From positions 255,280 to 319,279 of the forward strand of contig NZ_CP134981.1 of the NCBI RefSeq assembly GCF_039360445.1: 64,000 nt of DNA, in the 5' to 3' direction. The notes beneath the pieces were generated by a model. It saw nothing but the letters and a program-made list of their open reading frames with translations, did no database searches and was not told the DNA's origin. A program made the translations under genes and the position numbers. Origin of the DNA: Buchnera aphidicola (Periphyllus koelreuteriae) (GTDB lineage: Bacteria; Pseudomonadota; Gammaproteobacteria; Enterobacterales; Enterobacteriaceae). This document shows positions 16,014-53,162 of the stretch, piece after piece (position 1 is the stretch's first letter; the number at the start of each line of letters is the position of its first letter).

Positions 16014-16904
16014 ATGATAAAATTTGCTATGATTTTTCCAGGACAAGGAAATCAAGATATAAGAATAATAAAAAAACTATATAATAATTACTCTATAATA
16101 AAAAAAACATTTGATAAAGCATCAGAATATTTAAAATATAATATTAAAGAAAAAATTTTTAAAAAAAAAATAAATAATACTGTAACATCACAAATTGAAA
16201 TTTTAATTATTTCAATTGCATTATTTAATTTATGGAAAGAAATAATAGGAATTAATCCAAAAATTATGACAGGTCATAGTTTAGGTCAATATTCTGTATA
16301 TGTATGTAGTAAAATATTAAAATTTTCTGATGCAATTAAAATAGTTAAATATAGAGAAAAAATTATGAAAAAAAAACAAGGTTGCATGAATGTAATTATT
16401 GGACTAAAAAAAAAAAATATTATAAAAATATGCAAAAATTTTTTATTAAAAAAAAAAATTTCTATTGCTTGTATAAATTCAAAAAAACAAATAATTATTA
16501 CTGGAAAAAAAAAATATGTTTATCAAGCTTCTTTAAAATTAAAAAAATTTGGAGCAAAATATATTATTGATTTACCAATAAAAACTATTTCTCATTGTTC
16601 TTCTATAAAAAAAATAAAAAATTTATTATTAAAAAAATGTCAAAATATTTCTTTTAATAATCCTAAATTTTTAATTTTAGATAGTGTTAAAATAAAATTT
16701 ATAAATAATTCTATAAAAATAAAAAATTATTTAATAAATCAATTATGTCATACAATTCAATGGAAAAAAACAATTGATTTTATATTATTAAATAACATTA
16801 AATATTTTTTAGAAATTAATTCATCTAATATTTTAAATAAATTAAATCAAAATAAAATAAATTATTTTCCTTTAAATATAAAAAATATATTTAATTTAAA
16901 ATAA
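16014..16904 (+). CDS. fabD: Malonyl-CoA:ACP transacylase FabD
   Basis: Transfers malonyl from CoA to acyl carrier protein, supplying fatty acid elongation. It is 296 residues (E. coli 309). IFPGQGNQ begins the oxyanion-hole region, the nucleophile Ser lies in GHSLGQYS (E. coli GHSLGEYS), Arg in KYREKIM, His in ISHCSSIK and Gln in HTIQWKK, so all catalytic positions are kept. Several in-frame A10-A12 runs occur, including one of 12 A near 16406. It is followed 6 bp later by fabG. Confidence 0.94.
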   Translation: MIKFAMIFPGQGNQDIRIIKKLYNNYSIIKKTFDKASEYLKYNIKEKIFKKKINNTVTSQIEILIISIALFNLWKEIIGINPKIMTGHSLGQYSVYVCSKILKFSDAIKIVKYREKIMKKKQGCMNVIIGLKKKNIIKICKNFLLKKKISIACINSKKQIIITGKKKYVYQASLKLKKFGAKYIIDLPIKTISHCSSIKKIKNLLLKKCQNISFNNPKFLILDSVKIKFINNSIKIKNYLINQLCHTIQWKKTIDFILLNNIKYFLEINSSNILNKLNQNKINYFPLNIKNIFNLK

Positions 16905-16910
16905 AAAAAT

Positions 16911-17645
16911 ATGATAATGAATAAAAAATATGTTTTAATTACAGGAGCTAGAAGTGGTATAGGAAAATCTATTTTAAAAAAATTTTTAAAAAAAAAATAT
17001 ATCATAATAGGAACTTCTAGAAGTCAATATGGAGTAAAAAAAATAAAAAATTTAGTAAAAAATAATGGTTTTAGTATAAAATTAAATGTTAATCATCCTA
17101 ATTCAATCAAATCATTTTTAAATTTTATACAAAAAAAAATAAAAAACATAGATATATTAATTAATAATATTGGATATTTATCAGATAATTTAATTACAAA
17201 CATATCTAAAAAAAAATGGAATAAAGTAATCAATATTAATTTAAATTCTGTATTTTATATTTCAAAAATAATAATAAAAAAAATGATTAAAAATCGTTAT
17301 GGAAGAATTATAAATATAGGATCATTAGTTGGGCATATAGGAAATGCTGGTCAAATTAATTATTCTGCTTCAAAATCAGCTTTAATTGGTTTTACTAAAT
17401 CTTTAGCATTAGAAGTAGCTAGTAGAGGAATTACAGTAAATTTAGTTTCTCCTGGATTTATAAAAACAAATATGTTAAAAAAACTTACTTCTATTCAATT
17501 AAAAAAATGTTTAAAAAAAATTCCAATGAGAAAATTTGGAAAACCAAAAGATGTTTCTAATTTAGTAAAATTTTTATCTTTAAAAAAATCATCATATATT
17601 ACTGGGCAAACATTTCATGTAAATGGAGGAATTTGTTTTTTATAA
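16911..17645 (+). CDS. fabG: 3-oxoacyl-ACP reductase FabG
   Basis: NADPH-dependent short-chain dehydrogenase of the fatty acid elongation cycle. It is 244 residues, equal to E. coli. The cofactor loop TGARSGIG, the NNIG motif (NNAG in E. coli), catalytic Ser in IGSLVGH, the Tyr/Lys pair in YSASKSALIG, and the C-terminal YITGQTFHVNGG are all present. The ATG at 16911 gives MIMNKKYVLITG; the ATG at 16917 aligns equally well with the E. coli start. It sits between fabD and acpP with short gaps. Confidence 0.95.
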   Translation: MIMNKKYVLITGARSGIGKSILKKFLKKKYIIIGTSRSQYGVKKIKNLVKNNGFSIKLNVNHPNSIKSFLNFIQKKIKNIDILINNIGYLSDNLITNISKKKWNKVININLNSVFYISKIIIKKMIKNRYGRIINIGSLVGHIGNAGQINYSASKSALIGFTKSLALEVASRGITVNLVSPGFIKTNMLKKLTSIQLKKCLKKIPMRKFGKPKDVSNLVKFLSLKKSSYITGQTFHVNGGICFL

Positions 17646-19667: not shown

Positions 19668-20453
19668 ATGTTTTTAATAGATTCACATTGTCATCTTGAT
19701 AAATTAAATTTTAATAAAAACAAATTATCAAAAATACTTAAAAAAGCATACTCTAATAAAGTTAAAATAATATTATCAATTTCTATATCACTTAACAATT
19801 TCAAAAAAATAAAAAAATTATTAAAAAATAATAAATATAAAATTTTTTATTCATGTGGAATTCATCCATTACATATAAAAAACAAAAAAAATATATTTAA
19901 AAAATTATATAAATATTCTAAAAACGAAAAAGTTATTGCAATAGGAGAAACAGGATTAGATTATTTTTATTCAAAAAATAATATATTAGAACAAAAATAC
20001 TTTTTTTCTAAACATATAGAATTAAGTAAAAAACTTAATAAACCAATTATTATTCATTCAAGAAATTCAGGAAAAGATATAATTAAAATTTTAAAAAAAA
20101 ATGAATCTCATAAATTAAAAGGAATATTACATTCTTTTAATGATAATTTAAAAATTGCATTACAACTTTTAGATATGAATTTTTATATATCTTTTTCTGG
20201 AATGATTACATTTAAAAATTCTAAAGCATTACAATCAATAATTAAAAATATACCCTTAAATAGATTACTCTTAGAAACAGATTCTCCTTATTTAACACCT
20301 GAGCCTTATAGAGGTAAGGAAAATCAACCTTCCTATATATACTATATTGCAAAATATATTTCTAATTTACTTAAAATAGATATAGAAGAATTAAGTTATA
20401 TTACTAAAAAAAATTTCTTTAAATTGTTTAAATTAAATAAATTAAAAAAATAA
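19668..20453 (+). CDS. ycfH: TatD-family metal-dependent hydrolase YcfH
   Basis: TIM-barrel metal-dependent hydrolase of the TatD family, thought to act as a DNase. It is 261 residues (E. coli YcfH 265). The metal ligands are in place: IDSHCHLD at the N terminus, IGETGLDYF, IIHSRNSG, the SF-preceding His in GILHSF, and ETDSPYLTPEPYRGKENQP near the C terminus. The tmk-holB-ycfH-ptsG order copies E. coli. AGGAG precedes the ATG. The physiological substrate is unknown. Confidence 0.93.
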   Translation: MFLIDSHCHLDKLNFNKNKLSKILKKAYSNKVKIILSISISLNNFKKIKKLLKNNKYKIFYSCGIHPLHIKNKKNIFKKLYKYSKNEKVIAIGETGLDYFYSKNNILEQKYFFSKHIELSKKLNKPIIIHSRNSGKDIIKILKKNESHKLKGILHSFNDNLKIALQLLDMNFYISFSGMITFKNSKALQSIIKNIPLNRLLLETDSPYLTPEPYRGKENQPSYIYYIAKYISNLLKIDIEELSYITKKNFFKLFKLNKLKK

Positions 20454-44360: not shown

Positions 44361-44980
44361 TTATTTTTTTATATTTTTTGCTATAACAAAAATTTCACGA
44401 GATTTTGAGCTAGAAGATTTTGGTTTATAAATTTTTACCATAGAAAAATAATTTTTAATAGACTTAATATATAAATCAAATCCATCTCCTTGAAATATTT
44501 TAGTTATAAAAATTCCATTTTTATATAAAATATTTAAAGATAAATTAAATACAATTTTACTCAAATTTATAGATCTACAAACATCAATTAAAGAATGACC
44601 TGTTATTTTTGGAGATAAATCAGACATAACTAAATTAGATTTTCTATTTCTTAAAGCATTTAAAATAGATAAATAAGTTTTTTTTTTTTTATATTTCCTT
44701 GTATAAAAATTACTTTTGGAATAGGGTTCATTAATTTTATATCACATGATATAACTGTTCCTATTTGACCAACTTTTTTTATAGCATATTGAGACCAACT
44801 TCCTGGAAAACATCCTATATCTATAACTATATTACCTAATTTAAATATATTAAATTTTTTATGTATTTCTTGAATTTTAAACCATGCTCGAGAGCGTATT
44901 TTTTTTTTATGTGATTTTTTTACATATACATCTTTAAAATGATTTCTTAACCATAATTTAGAACTAGATTTTTTTTTCAT
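44361..44980 (-). CDS. rlmE: 23S rRNA Um2552 methyltransferase RlmE, frameshifted in poly(A)
   Basis: 2'-O-methylates U2552 of 23S rRNA, a late 50S maturation step. The gene is broken after about 100 codons by a 13-A run (44678-44690, T on the plus strand): the first frame ends IKKKKLIYLF, and the second continues TYLSILNALRNRKSNLVMSD. One extra A, or two fewer, would give 206 residues (E. coli 209). All four catalytic residues survive across the halves: Lys in SRAWFKIQ, Asp in VMSDLSP, Lys in ITKIFQGDG, Glu in KSREIF; DIGCFPGSWSQ is the SAM loop. It is probably rescued by polymerase slippage. Confidence 0.88.
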
Positions 44981-48980: not shown

Positions 48981-49822
48981 ATGAAAAATAAAAAAATATT
49001 ACATTTAAGAAAAAAAATAAATATTATAAATAAATCTATTATTAATTTATTATATAAAAGAAATTTAATTTCTAAAAAAATTGTTAAAGAAAAAATTCAT
49101 AGTAATTATCCAATAAAAGATAAAAAAAGAGAAAATAAAATATTTGAAAAAATTATATATGAAGGTAAAAAATATAATCTTAAAAAAAAATATTTAATTA
49201 AAATTTTTAAGATTATTATTAAAAATTCGATAAAAACTCAAAAAAAAAAATTAAAAAAAAAAAAATTAAAATAGCATTTTTAGGACCTAAAGGATCTTAT
49301 TCTTACATTGCTGCATTAAAATATTCAAAAAAAAAAAAAAAACAATTACATGCTATTCCATGTAAAAATTTTGAAAATATTGTTAAAAAAACTAAAAAAA
49401 AAAATATTTATGCAATTTTTCCTATTAAAAATAAAATTTCTGGAATAATTGAAGAAACTAATAAAATACTTAAAAAAAATAATTTTTTTTTTATAGACAA
49501 AATAAAAATTTCAATTAATCATTGTTTAATATCAAAAAAAAAACAATCATTAAAAACTATAAAAGTTATATATAGTCATTCTCAACCTATAAAACAATGT
49601 GAATTATTTATAAATAAATTTTCTCATTGGAAAATAAAATATACAAATAGTTCATCTGATGCAATAAAAATTGTTTCAAATAATAAAAAAAATAATATTG
49701 CAGCAATAGGAAATGAAATATGTAGTAAATTAAATAATATGAAGATAATTAAAAAAAATATATCTAATTGTCATGATAATAAAACATTATTTTATATACT
49801 ATCAAAAAATAAAAAAATATAA
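48981..49822 (+). CDS. pheA: Chorismate mutase/prephenate dehydratase, frameshifted and lacking the ACT domain
   Basis: Bifunctional enzyme from chorismate to phenylpyruvate. The chorismate mutase part (48981-49274) keeps the catalytic Arg, Lys, Glu, Ser and Gln positions (LRKKI, KRNLISKKIVKEK, KKRENKIF, NSIKTQ). It stops at a TAG just after A11 and A13 runs (49240-49250, 49253-49265). From 49271 another frame carries the dehydratase for 183 residues: IAFLGPKGSYSYIAALKYS, INHCLIS, YSHSQPIKQCELFI, HWKIKYTNSSSDA. One extra A would fuse them into 280 residues (E. coli 386). The protein ends NKTLFYILSKNKKI, where the ACT regulatory domain should begin. The dehydratase ENT and TRF motifs read KNK and TLF. 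Confidence 0.88.
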
Positions 49823-51272: not shown

Positions 51273-51512
51273 ATGGTAAAAATACGACTTTCTAGACATG
51301 GATCAAATAAAAAACCTTTTTATAAAATTGTTGTTACAGATAGTAGATCTTCTAGAAATGGAAAATTTATTGAAAAAATTGGATTTTTTAATCCTATTAT
51401 TAATAATAAAAATATATCTTTTCAAATAAATAAAGAAAAAATTAAATATTGGGTTTCTGTTGGAGCACAAATATCTTATAGATTAAAATACCTAATAAAA
51501 AAATATAAGTAA
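51273..51512 (+). CDS. rpsP: Ribosomal protein S16
   Basis: Small-subunit assembly protein of 79 residues (E. coli 82). MVKIRLSRHGSNKKPFYKIV and SRSSRNGKFIEKIGFFNPI are family signatures; WVSVGAQISYRLKYLIKK is near the C terminus. AAGGAAAA precedes the ATG. Only 7 bp separate it from rimM, as in E. coli. Confidence 0.97.
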   Translation: MVKIRLSRHGSNKKPFYKIVVTDSRSSRNGKFIEKIGFFNPIINNKNISFQINKEKIKYWVSVGAQISYRLKYLIKKYK

Positions 51513-51519
51513 AATTTAA

Positions 51520-52065
51520 ATGAGTTTAAAAATATTTAAAAAAATAATAATAGGAAAAATATTTTTTCCATATGGAATTTTAGGTTGGTTAAAAATTTTT
51601 TCATTCACTGAAACAAAAGAAAATATTTTTAAATATAAACCTTTATTATATTATGATAAAAAAAAAATAAAAAAATTAAAAATTCAATCTTGGAAAAATT
51701 ATAAAAATTTTTTTTTAATAAAAATAAAAAATATTAATACTAGAAATGAAGCATTTTTTTTTAAAAATAAAAAAATATTTATTTATTCTAATCAATTAAA
51801 AAAAAAATATAAAAATGAATATTATTGGCATGAAATTCTTAATTCAAAAGTTTTTGATAAAAATAAAAAATTTATTGGAATAGTAAAAGAAATAATTCGA
51901 ACGCCATCAAATGATATTTTAAAAATTACTTTAAAATCTTTCAAACAAAAAAATATAGAAAAATTAATACCATTTATTGAAAATAAAATTATAAAAAAAA
52001 TAAAAATAAAAGAAAAAAAAATAATTATTAACCAAAAAAAGGATAAATTTTTTGATAAATTTTAA
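51520..52065 (+). CDS. rimM: Ribosome maturation factor RimM
   Basis: 30S maturation factor binding S19 and the 3' domain of 16S rRNA. It is 181 residues (E. coli 182). IIIGKIFFPYGILGWLKIFSFTE marks the N-terminal barrel region, and the C-terminal PRC-barrel region has YYWHEILNSKVFD and TPSNDILKITL. The end KLIPFIENKIIKKI is conserved. Its last 14 bases overlap the TTG start of trmD, so the two are translationally coupled. Confidence 0.94.
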   Translation: MSLKIFKKIIIGKIFFPYGILGWLKIFSFTETKENIFKYKPLLYYDKKKIKKLKIQSWKNYKNFFLIKIKNINTRNEAFFFKNKKIFIYSNQLKKKYKNEYYWHEILNSKVFDKNKKFIGIVKEIIRTPSNDILKITLKSFKQKNIEKLIPFIENKIIKKIKIKEKKIIINQKKDKFFDKF

Positions 52066-52794
52066 AATACTTACAATTTTTCCAAAAATGTTTAATTCAA
52101 TTATTAATTATGGAATGATATCTAGAGCAATAAAAAAAAAATCATTAAATTAAGTATTTTAAACATTAGAAAATTTAGTAATAAAAAAAATAAAAATATA
52201 GATGATAGACCTTATGGAGGAGGTCCAGGAATGATTATGAGTTTTTTACCTTTAAAAAAAGCTATCATAAAAGCTAAAAAAAATAAAAAATGTATAGTTA
52301 TTTATTTATCTCCTCAAGGAAAAAAAATATCAAATTCAAGATTAAAAAAATTATCTAAAAAAAAAATAATTATATTAATTTGTGGAAGATATCAAGGAAT
52401 AGATCAAAGATTAATAAATAAATATGTTAATAAAGAAATATCAATTGGAAATTATATTTTAACTGGAGGAGAATTAGCTGCAATGGTTTTTATAGATAGT
52501 ATATCTAGATTTCTTCCAGGAGTAATAAAAAAAAAAAAATCTGAACATCAAGATTCTTTTTCTCATATGTTATTAGATTATCCTCATTATACAAGACCAA
52601 AAATAATAGATAATATGAAAGTTCCAAAAATTCTTTTATCAGGAAATCATAAAAAAATTAAATTATGGAGATTAAAAAAATCTATTCAACAAACATTTTT
52701 AAAAAAACCTAAATTATTAAAAAAAAAGAAATTAAAAAATATAGAAAAAAAATTTTTAAATAAATTTAAAAAAAAATTAAATAAAAAAATATAA
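52052..52794 (+). CDS. trmD: tRNA m1G37 methyltransferase TrmD, frameshifted in poly(A)
   Basis: Methylates G37 of tRNAs reading CNN and so prevents +1 slippage by the ribosome; essential in E. coli. Translation starts at TTG (52052) with AAAGGA upstream and reads [28 protein letters not shown]. The frame then fails at an A10 run (52132-52141) and hits TAA at 52151. With one more A it continues [29 protein letters not shown] and the trefoil-knot SAM site ([34 protein letters not shown]) to 247 residues (E. coli 255). The ATG at 52231 is internal, not a start. It is probably rescued by slippage. Confidence 0.9.
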
Positions 52795-52817: not shown

Positions 52818-53162
52818 ATGAAAAATATTATACACAAAATAGAAAAAAAACAAATAAAAAAAAATATACCAAAATTTAATTCAGGAGATACAATCGAAGT
52901 TAAAGTATGGGTAATGGAAGGATCTAAAAAACGTTTACAATCTTTTGAAGGAATTGTAATAGCAAAAAAAAATAGATTTTTACAATCTTCTTTTTGTGTA
53001 AGAAAAATTTCTAATGGAGAAGGTGTAGAAAGAGTGTTTCAAACTCATTCTTATAATATTAAAAAAATATTTATAAAAAGAAAAGGAAAAGTTAAAAAAT
53101 CTAAATTATATTATTTACGTAAAAAATTTGGAAAATCTGCAAGAATAAAAGAAAAAATATAA
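52818..53162 (+). CDS. rplS: Ribosomal protein L19
   Basis: Large-subunit protein at the 30S interface; 114 residues (E. coli 115). [54 protein letters not shown] and [16 protein letters not shown] are all highly conserved. It is 23 bp after trmD and last in the ffh-rplS run; a strong terminator follows. Confidence 0.97.

Follow-up and report, generated by a model that had tools for sequence, protein, structure and literature searches.

In Buchnera aphidicola (Periphyllus koelreuteriae), the gene of the tRNA m1G37 methyltransferase TrmD is one base short in a tract of ten adenines, so that two frames together encode one protein. Our analysis suggests that it is probably a working gene with a long-lived one-base poly(A) deletion, the frame of which would be restored mainly by slippage of RNA polymerase. 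The deficit is found in eight of the 11 genomes of the genus and at two alternative A tracts, and the codons on both sides of the break have stayed under purifying selection.

The trmD locus and the identity of its two pieces

The window, a stretch of 64,000 nucleotides, is part of a single contig of 451,592 bp and has a G+C content of 17.6%, below the mean of 23.01% given for nine Cinara Buchnera (PMC6908640). The genome is designated G000 in the comparison of the genus. The gene order rpsP-rimM-trmD-rplS is kept at the trmD locus (Table 1), where the names rpsP and rplS are our assignments from sequence and operon order. The end of rimM overlaps the first 14 nucleotides of trmD. An AGGA before a TTG is also seen in trmD of the relatives G002, G003 and G007. 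Re-reading of the sequence placed the TTG start, the A10 tract and the TAA stop exactly where the initial annotation had described them. Its statement that one added A would give 247 residues is also correct, as the 743 nucleotides of trmD plus one base make 744, which corresponds to 247 codons and a stop. The gene has a single indel inside a homopolymer and is otherwise intact, as is characteristic of a slippage-rescued gene.

Table 1. Features of the trmD locus and of other genes in the window (positions in the window)
Feature	Position	Strand	Remarks
fabD	16014..16904		intact copy
TatD-type nuclease	19668..20453		intact copy
rlmE	44361..44980	-	one base short at A13
pheA, chorismate mutase part	48981..49274		one base short at the junction with the dehydratase part
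pheA, prephenate dehydratase part	49223..49822
rpsP	51273..51512	+	upstream of rimM
rimM	51520..52065	+	PF01782 match; stop 52063-52065
Shine-Dalgarno-like AGGA	52040..52043	+	8 nt before the trmD TTG
trmD first frame	52052..52153	+	TTG start 52052-52054, 33 codons, TAA 52151-52153
trmD second frame	52126..52794	+	residues ~27 to C terminus; first stop 52792-52794
A10 tract (site 1)	52132..52141	+	trmD frame one base short
First ATG of trmD second frame	52231..52233	+	3' of the [10 protein letters not shown] motif
rplS	52818..53162	+	downstream of trmD

Database searches showed that both pieces belong to TrmD. The second frame matches PF01746 with an E-value of 5e-54 and exceeds the cut-offs of the equivalog models TIGR00088 (265 bits against 195) and NF000648 (258 bits against 220). 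The TIGR00088 match starts at model position 27, and the alignment to PDB chain 4mcb likewise starts at residue 27; therefore the two pieces abut. The [11 protein letters not shown] and the C-terminal part are present and collinear with solved TrmD, in line with the earlier reading, in which the second frame carries the former and the whole trefoil-knot SAM site. The first piece of 33 residues found no match in the Pfam search; it hits two NCBIfam TrmD models with E-values of 1e-5 and 8e-5 (25 and 22 bits), far under the equivalog cut-offs, being a fragment. Its matches to PDB chains are weak (best E-value 0.003), but all 17 of the 17 rows are TrmD, aligned at the N-terminal residues. By equivalog membership, the split gene is TrmD, with a predicted tRNA m1G37 methyltransferase activity. 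A search of the genome gave one TrmD match only, and a second trmD copy was rejected on this basis.

One-base deficits of trmD across the genus

A trmD match is present in all 11 genomes of the genus, and deficits were located in each by the nucleotide distances between fixed motifs. The gene is one base short in eight of them, namely this genome and seven of the ten relatives, and intact in G004, G006 and G009. Five genomes (G000, G001, G002, G003 and G007) have the deficit at site 1, the homologous A tract, where the motif distance up to RPYGGG is 146 nt compared to 147 nt in the other six. Three genomes (G005, G008 and G010) have it at site 2, another A tract about 48 codons downstream, with 95 nt from RPYGGG to YLSPQG, a distance of 96 nt in seven genomes and of 102 nt in G006. 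The two deficits occur together in none of the 11 genomes. The A tracts at the break measure 10, 10, 11, 13 and 10 at site 1 and 12 in each of the three genomes at site 2.

A tree based on 13,489 aligned residues, in which G005 occupies 7,739 of 14,317 alignment columns, grouped the genomes into the clades {G000, G007, G002, G003}, {G005, G008, G010} and {G004, G009}, each with 100% support, and these clades also came out of a three-protein tree, at 98-100%. One of them consists of four of the five site-1 genomes, and its deepest members are about 0.3-0.4 amino acid substitutions per site apart. The fifth, G001, may owe its break to one old event shared with them or to a separate hit. The gene pheA is broken at its domain junction in exactly the five site-1 genomes, and one ancestor is therefore favoured for both breaks. 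If the five site-1 genomes share this ancestor, trmD broke twice, and otherwise three times or more. The recurrence could partly reflect a mutational hotspot, hit repeatedly and recently, which is conceivable because the order among the three clades and G001, the deep branching of the genus, is supported at 47 and 52% only.

In a family-wide sample, a trmD match was found in 147 of 149 genomes. Besides G008, divided matches occur in G016 and in the 49%-complete G038, and trmD of G112 has an internal TGA. This search is blind to N-terminal breaks, G000 itself appearing whole in it, and therefore gives no count of intact genes. Among 14 trmD loci of other genera that were read fully, G016 alone is split between two long frames, and its break lies outside any homopolymer.

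Selection on the split gene

The dN/dS values of trmD were calculated from 205 codons by a simple counting method, with the ragged C termini excluded, and set against medians from 30-58 neighbouring ORF pairs (Table 2). The five split pairs cover seven of the eight split genomes, G001 being in no pair, and in all five trmD lies under the neighbour median of its own pair. In these pairs purifying selection is seen on both sides of the break, the first piece contributing only 25 codons.

Table 2. dN/dS of trmD and of neighbouring genes
Pair	trmD dN/dS	Neighbour median
G002/G003	0.163	0.227
G005/G010	0.153	0.256
G008/G010	0.198	0.279
G005/G008	0.253	0.273
G000/G007	0.250	0.344
G004/G009 (intact pair)	0.165	0.244

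In addition, trmD of all eight split genomes stays open from the break to its regular end, that of G003 running off the contig end. Simulated neutral drift, usable for the two pairs G002/G003 and G000/G007 only, as in G005/G010 and G008/G010 the frame was read across site 2, added on average 9.3 and 18.9 stops, respectively, compared to none observed, and runs free of stops made up 1 of 2000 for the former and 0 of 2000 for the latter. A decayed gene in the same sisters G002 and G003, which we take to be tmk (thymidylate kinase), provides a contrast: four stops fall in its best 88-residue segment in G002 and 15 in its alignment in G003, whereas the second trmD frame has zero stops in both genomes. 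The intact trmD of G006 and of G009 each show two stops in the alignment, which were read as lying beyond their own C termini. Persistence across lineages together with purifying selection 3' of the frameshift is what marks a slippage-rescued gene, and we consider trmD to be very probably functional, the break notwithstanding.

The decayed tmk carries many stops in both sisters (in G002 at about 16300-16930 of locus L077) and is intact in the eight others compared, G005 being outside this comparison as its region is not covered.

Restoration of the reading frame

Since trmD is intact on both sides of the break, its frame is very probably restored by slipping on the A's. We propose that faithful messages would give a 33-residue stub, and that RNA polymerase would slip backwards on A10 and add one A in a minority of messages. 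Messages with the added A would then be translated into the full-length TrmD of 247 residues, which would methylate G37 of tRNA-Pro and of two tRNA-Leu. Such a minority should do, given that the cell requires much less TrmD than ribosomal proteins from this operon; E. coli contains about 40-fold less TrmD than RpsP and RplS (PMC8643618). We infer from the sequences that the frame is restored, that the polymerase does most of this and that the yield suffices.

The one-base-short sign, common to all 21 robust breaks in the census described below, is the sign that can be cured by bases added in RNA. In reporter constructs, E. coli RNA polymerase inserted bases on A runs of eight or more, and none of the poly(A) runs studied gave deletions; the same paper cites in vitro work with this polymerase in which deletions, of the wrong sign, prevailed on A11 (PMC6260861). 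An A10 tract also lies at the frameshift of Buchnera mur genes (PMC6260861). In Buchnera LSR1, homopolymers held 151 of 157 transcription insertions, and insertions became exponentially more frequent as runs lengthened to 11 (PMC5574713). For frameshifted symbiont genes, corrected transcripts of 12-50% have been given (PMC5009743). The proposal in the initial annotation that Buchnera rescues such genes by polymerase slippage holds as far as it fits the tract length and the sign and is cited for Buchnera cell-wall genes in two papers; on the other side, the LSR1 study did not detect frame-restoring transcription errors, which counts against rescue by the polymerase (PMC5574713).

An identical product of 247 residues would arise if the ribosome slipped by -1 on the AAA AAA codons of A10, with polymerase slippage being minor. 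The -1 sign of the 21 robust breaks fits this equally well, and sliding of ribosomes on poly(A) has been reported (PMC4363877). An A AAA AAA heptamer stands in the right phase at 52132-52138. Programmed -1 frameshift sites have a stimulatory structure about 5-9 nt downstream, but the tract is followed by no stem-loop at this spacing, and no conserved structure was found about 5-9 nt 3' of site 1 in the five site-1 genomes, of which four were folded singly (z of -1.34 in G000, +0.34 in G001, -0.46 in G002 and -0.91 in G007). The one conserved stem starts about 66 nt downstream in G000 and encodes the PYGGG motif; none of its six pairs has a compensatory change among the five site-1 genomes, and on account of its wrong distance and this lack it was rejected as a ribosomal stimulatory hairpin. 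Moreover, the broken tracts all have at least ten A's although seven are enough for a ribosome, an argument softened by the fact that deletions also arise in long tracts. A ribosomal origin of the restored frame seems unlikely, if quite conceivable, and slippage of the polymerase is more likely on the present sequences. The guard of TrmD against +1 slippage, which the initial annotation had brought forward, has no special bearing on the rescue of the trmD frame because the shift needed is a base added in RNA or a -1 slip.

Poly(A) frame breaks in neighbouring genes and the accuracy of the assemblies

A frameshift-aware census of the 11 genomes took in 83 gene groups from the 35-64 kb surrounding trmD, with a robust break defined by at least two references and an A run of 9 or more. 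It revealed 21 robust breaks, all one base short on A10-A14, of which eight are in trmD, six in the TatD-type nuclease, five in the dehydratase part of pheA, and one each in fabD and rlmE; five breaks at the pheA domain junction and the decayed tmk are counted outside the census total. The census left out +1 calls that had a single reference or were paired with a -1 call (among them those in trmD of G005, G009 and G010, for which the split G007 had served as reference), as well as single-reference -1 calls. Also set aside were one two-reference +1 call in group 69 of G009, the right side of which was weak (37), and two-reference -1 calls lacking an A run in group 42 of G005, G008 and G010, probably an antisense shadow.

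If the assembly had dropped one A in the homopolymer and the real trmD were intact, such undercalling would yield exactly the one-base-short sign, and the G003 contig that ends in a long poly(A) does resemble an artefact. However, compared to the 21 broken runs, 578 A runs of at least ten are in frame in neighbouring genes (counted in ORFs that reach 85% or more of their expected length and belong to groups found in seven or more genomes, with 30-52 genes per genome, and including the pheA dehydratase ORF of the junction-broken genomes). In 20,000 trials, 21 runs picked at random out of 625 were never as concentrated as those in the five genes. The gathering of the breaks in five genes, eight of them in trmD and all one base short, argues against random miscalls. 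In addition, the affected genomes follow clades, whereas random undercalling would not choose genes clade-wise, and five separate genome assemblies would all have to err at one tract. A miscall is thus a very improbable explanation of the split trmD.

A conservative count gives at least eight origins of the breaks: two in trmD, two in pheA, two in the TatD-type nuclease, as G002 has a break that its sister G003 lacks, and one each in fabD and rlmE. With all of these of one sign, a two-sided sign test gives about 0.008 by arithmetic; a deletion-biased mutation process could also produce the uniform one-base-short sign.

The other broken genes differ in their distribution. Within the stretch measured, pheA has one break in each of the ten genomes in which it was found, either at the domain junction or, in G004, G009, G005, G008 and G010, in an A10 of the dehydratase part; in the stretch of G006 its motif did not turn up. 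The TatD-type nuclease is one base short at A10-A14 in six of ten genomes (G001, G002, G004, G008, G009 and G010), and fabD is one base short at A11 in G007 only, at about 14801 of locus L074. The gene rlmE, coding for the 23S rRNA Um2552 methyltransferase FtsJ, is split in this genome and in none of the other ten of the census. In contig C3 of G003 (L018, first bases), a very long A run, probably an assembly artefact, terminates the sequence at the 3' end of trmD. The open-access text available contains no description that we could find of the pheA, TatD-type, fabD and rlmE breaks alongside trmD.

tRNA substrates, prolyl-tRNA synthetase and the possibility of gene loss

In this genome tRNA-Pro(UGG), tRNA-Leu(UAG) and tRNA-Leu(GAG) have a G directly 3' of the anticodon. 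Position 37 is A in tRNA-Arg(CCG), on which TrmD acts in E. coli; this holds here and throughout the seven genomes with a good match to this tRNA (loci L135 and L145-L150); the six relatives among them, with split or intact trmD, combine Arg A37 with Pro G37. No good match to tRNA-Arg(CCG) was found in G001, G002, G003 and G006. The prolyl-tRNA synthetase (ProRS) is without about 190 model positions in ten of the 11 genomes (loci L104-L113), a stretch that we take to be the insertion or editing domain, and G006 keeps them (L103). At the E19 position of ProRS, eight of the 11 genomes have K and the three site-2 genomes have H, C or Y, so that the residue is acidic in none; it is E in the 5-Mb family member G011. 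Lysine is generally common in such AT-rich genomes anyway. A short ProRS (G028 and G130) or K19 (G020) is also present in other genera with no visible trmD break, the short ProRS in ones with small genomes.

These changes would suit a young trmD pseudogene on its way to loss, with ProRS changed or m1G37 dispensable. According to PMC8643618, E. coli survives without trmD, and null strains recover when proS is altered, E19K being one change that restores growth of m1G37-deficient cells; contrary to the initial annotation, TrmD is thus not strictly essential there. Loss is nevertheless hard to reconcile with the absence of stops after the break in the eight split genomes (G003 ending at its contig end) and with dN/dS values as low as those of the neighbours in the five pairs tested. 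Moreover, the ProRS and tRNA-Arg changes are shared with relatives whose trmD is intact, and tRNA-Pro retains G37 in this genome and six relatives. We regard loss as highly unlikely, and the earlier view that trmD has not truly been lost is well founded in the selection on both sides of the break in five pairs and in the G37 retained by tRNA-Pro and the two tRNA-Leu. The ProRS and tRNA changes constitute at most a permissive background, because they also occur in intact-trmD relatives and do not track the break; as a cause of the split they were rejected for the same reason.

It is scarcely credible that the 33-residue stub and a restarted C-terminal protein associate as two chains with the frame left unrestored: both pieces are open and the second retains the positions after residue 27, but its first ATG, GTG or TTG is the ATG at 52231, a protein begun there would be without the [10 protein letters not shown] motif, and the site-2 genomes break elsewhere, and therefore no fixed piece boundary is used.

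Comparison with known frameshifted genes and possible significance

Programmed -1 ribosomal frameshifting of the dnaX type relies on a slippery run and a stimulatory structure and gives two products. Similarly, trmD has a slippery A run on which a -1 slip would restore the frame, but it is without a stimulatory structure at the right distance and its two frames encode one protein. Closer parallels are found among insect symbionts. In Buchnera and Blochmannia, genes with a frameshift in poly(A) are reported to be rescued by transcriptional slippage (Tamas et al. 2008, via PMC5009743 and PMC4389277). Like those genes, trmD is an otherwise intact gene of an AT-rich insect symbiont with a one-base deficit in an A-rich tract for which slippage is proposed; it differs in being trmD and in having two alternative tracts across one genus. 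In Blochmannia, ancient frameshifts in dnaX, dnaG, pth and other genes (PMC3017870) are kept by selection (Wernegreen et al. 2010, via PMC3017870 and PMC4389277). These are common to several species and were treated as functional by their authors, with no downstream erosion detected, as is the case here; compared to them, a different gene is affected, in eight of 11 genomes and at two sites. We found no description of a trmD frameshift in Buchnera in the open-access text available. What seems to be new is its occurrence in trmD, repeatedly and at two alternative sites; the kind of frameshift as such is known from Buchnera and Blochmannia.

A bolder proposal, that the one-base deficit serves as a brake on trmD expression and is not merely tolerated, appears rather improbable. 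In E. coli, a 5' mRNA structure keeps TrmD about 40-fold scarcer than the ribosomal proteins encoded on the shared message (PMC8643618). The 5' end of trmD in this genome folds more weakly than most shuffles (z of +1.0). If the brake were real, a leaky A tract near the 5' end would have replaced a structure of the E. coli type and would have been set up independently at two sites, though at only one of them in any given genome, and a low level of TrmD would be acceptable in lineages with an altered ProRS (domain loss in ten of 11, K at the E19 position in eight of 11).

The recurrence of the trmD break at two alternative tracts amounts to a natural experiment, in which split and intact relatives could be compared for the tract length of transcripts, TrmD dose and m1G37. 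This bears on the question of whether genes rescued by slippage are simply tolerated or have been turned into dose controls. Annotation pipelines may call such genes dead, and one Buchnera study excluded from its analysis any coding sequence that was frameshifted or had an internal stop (PMC9116674). Applied here, such filtering would delete trmD, a widely kept translation gene, from eight of the 11 genomes and pheA from ten.
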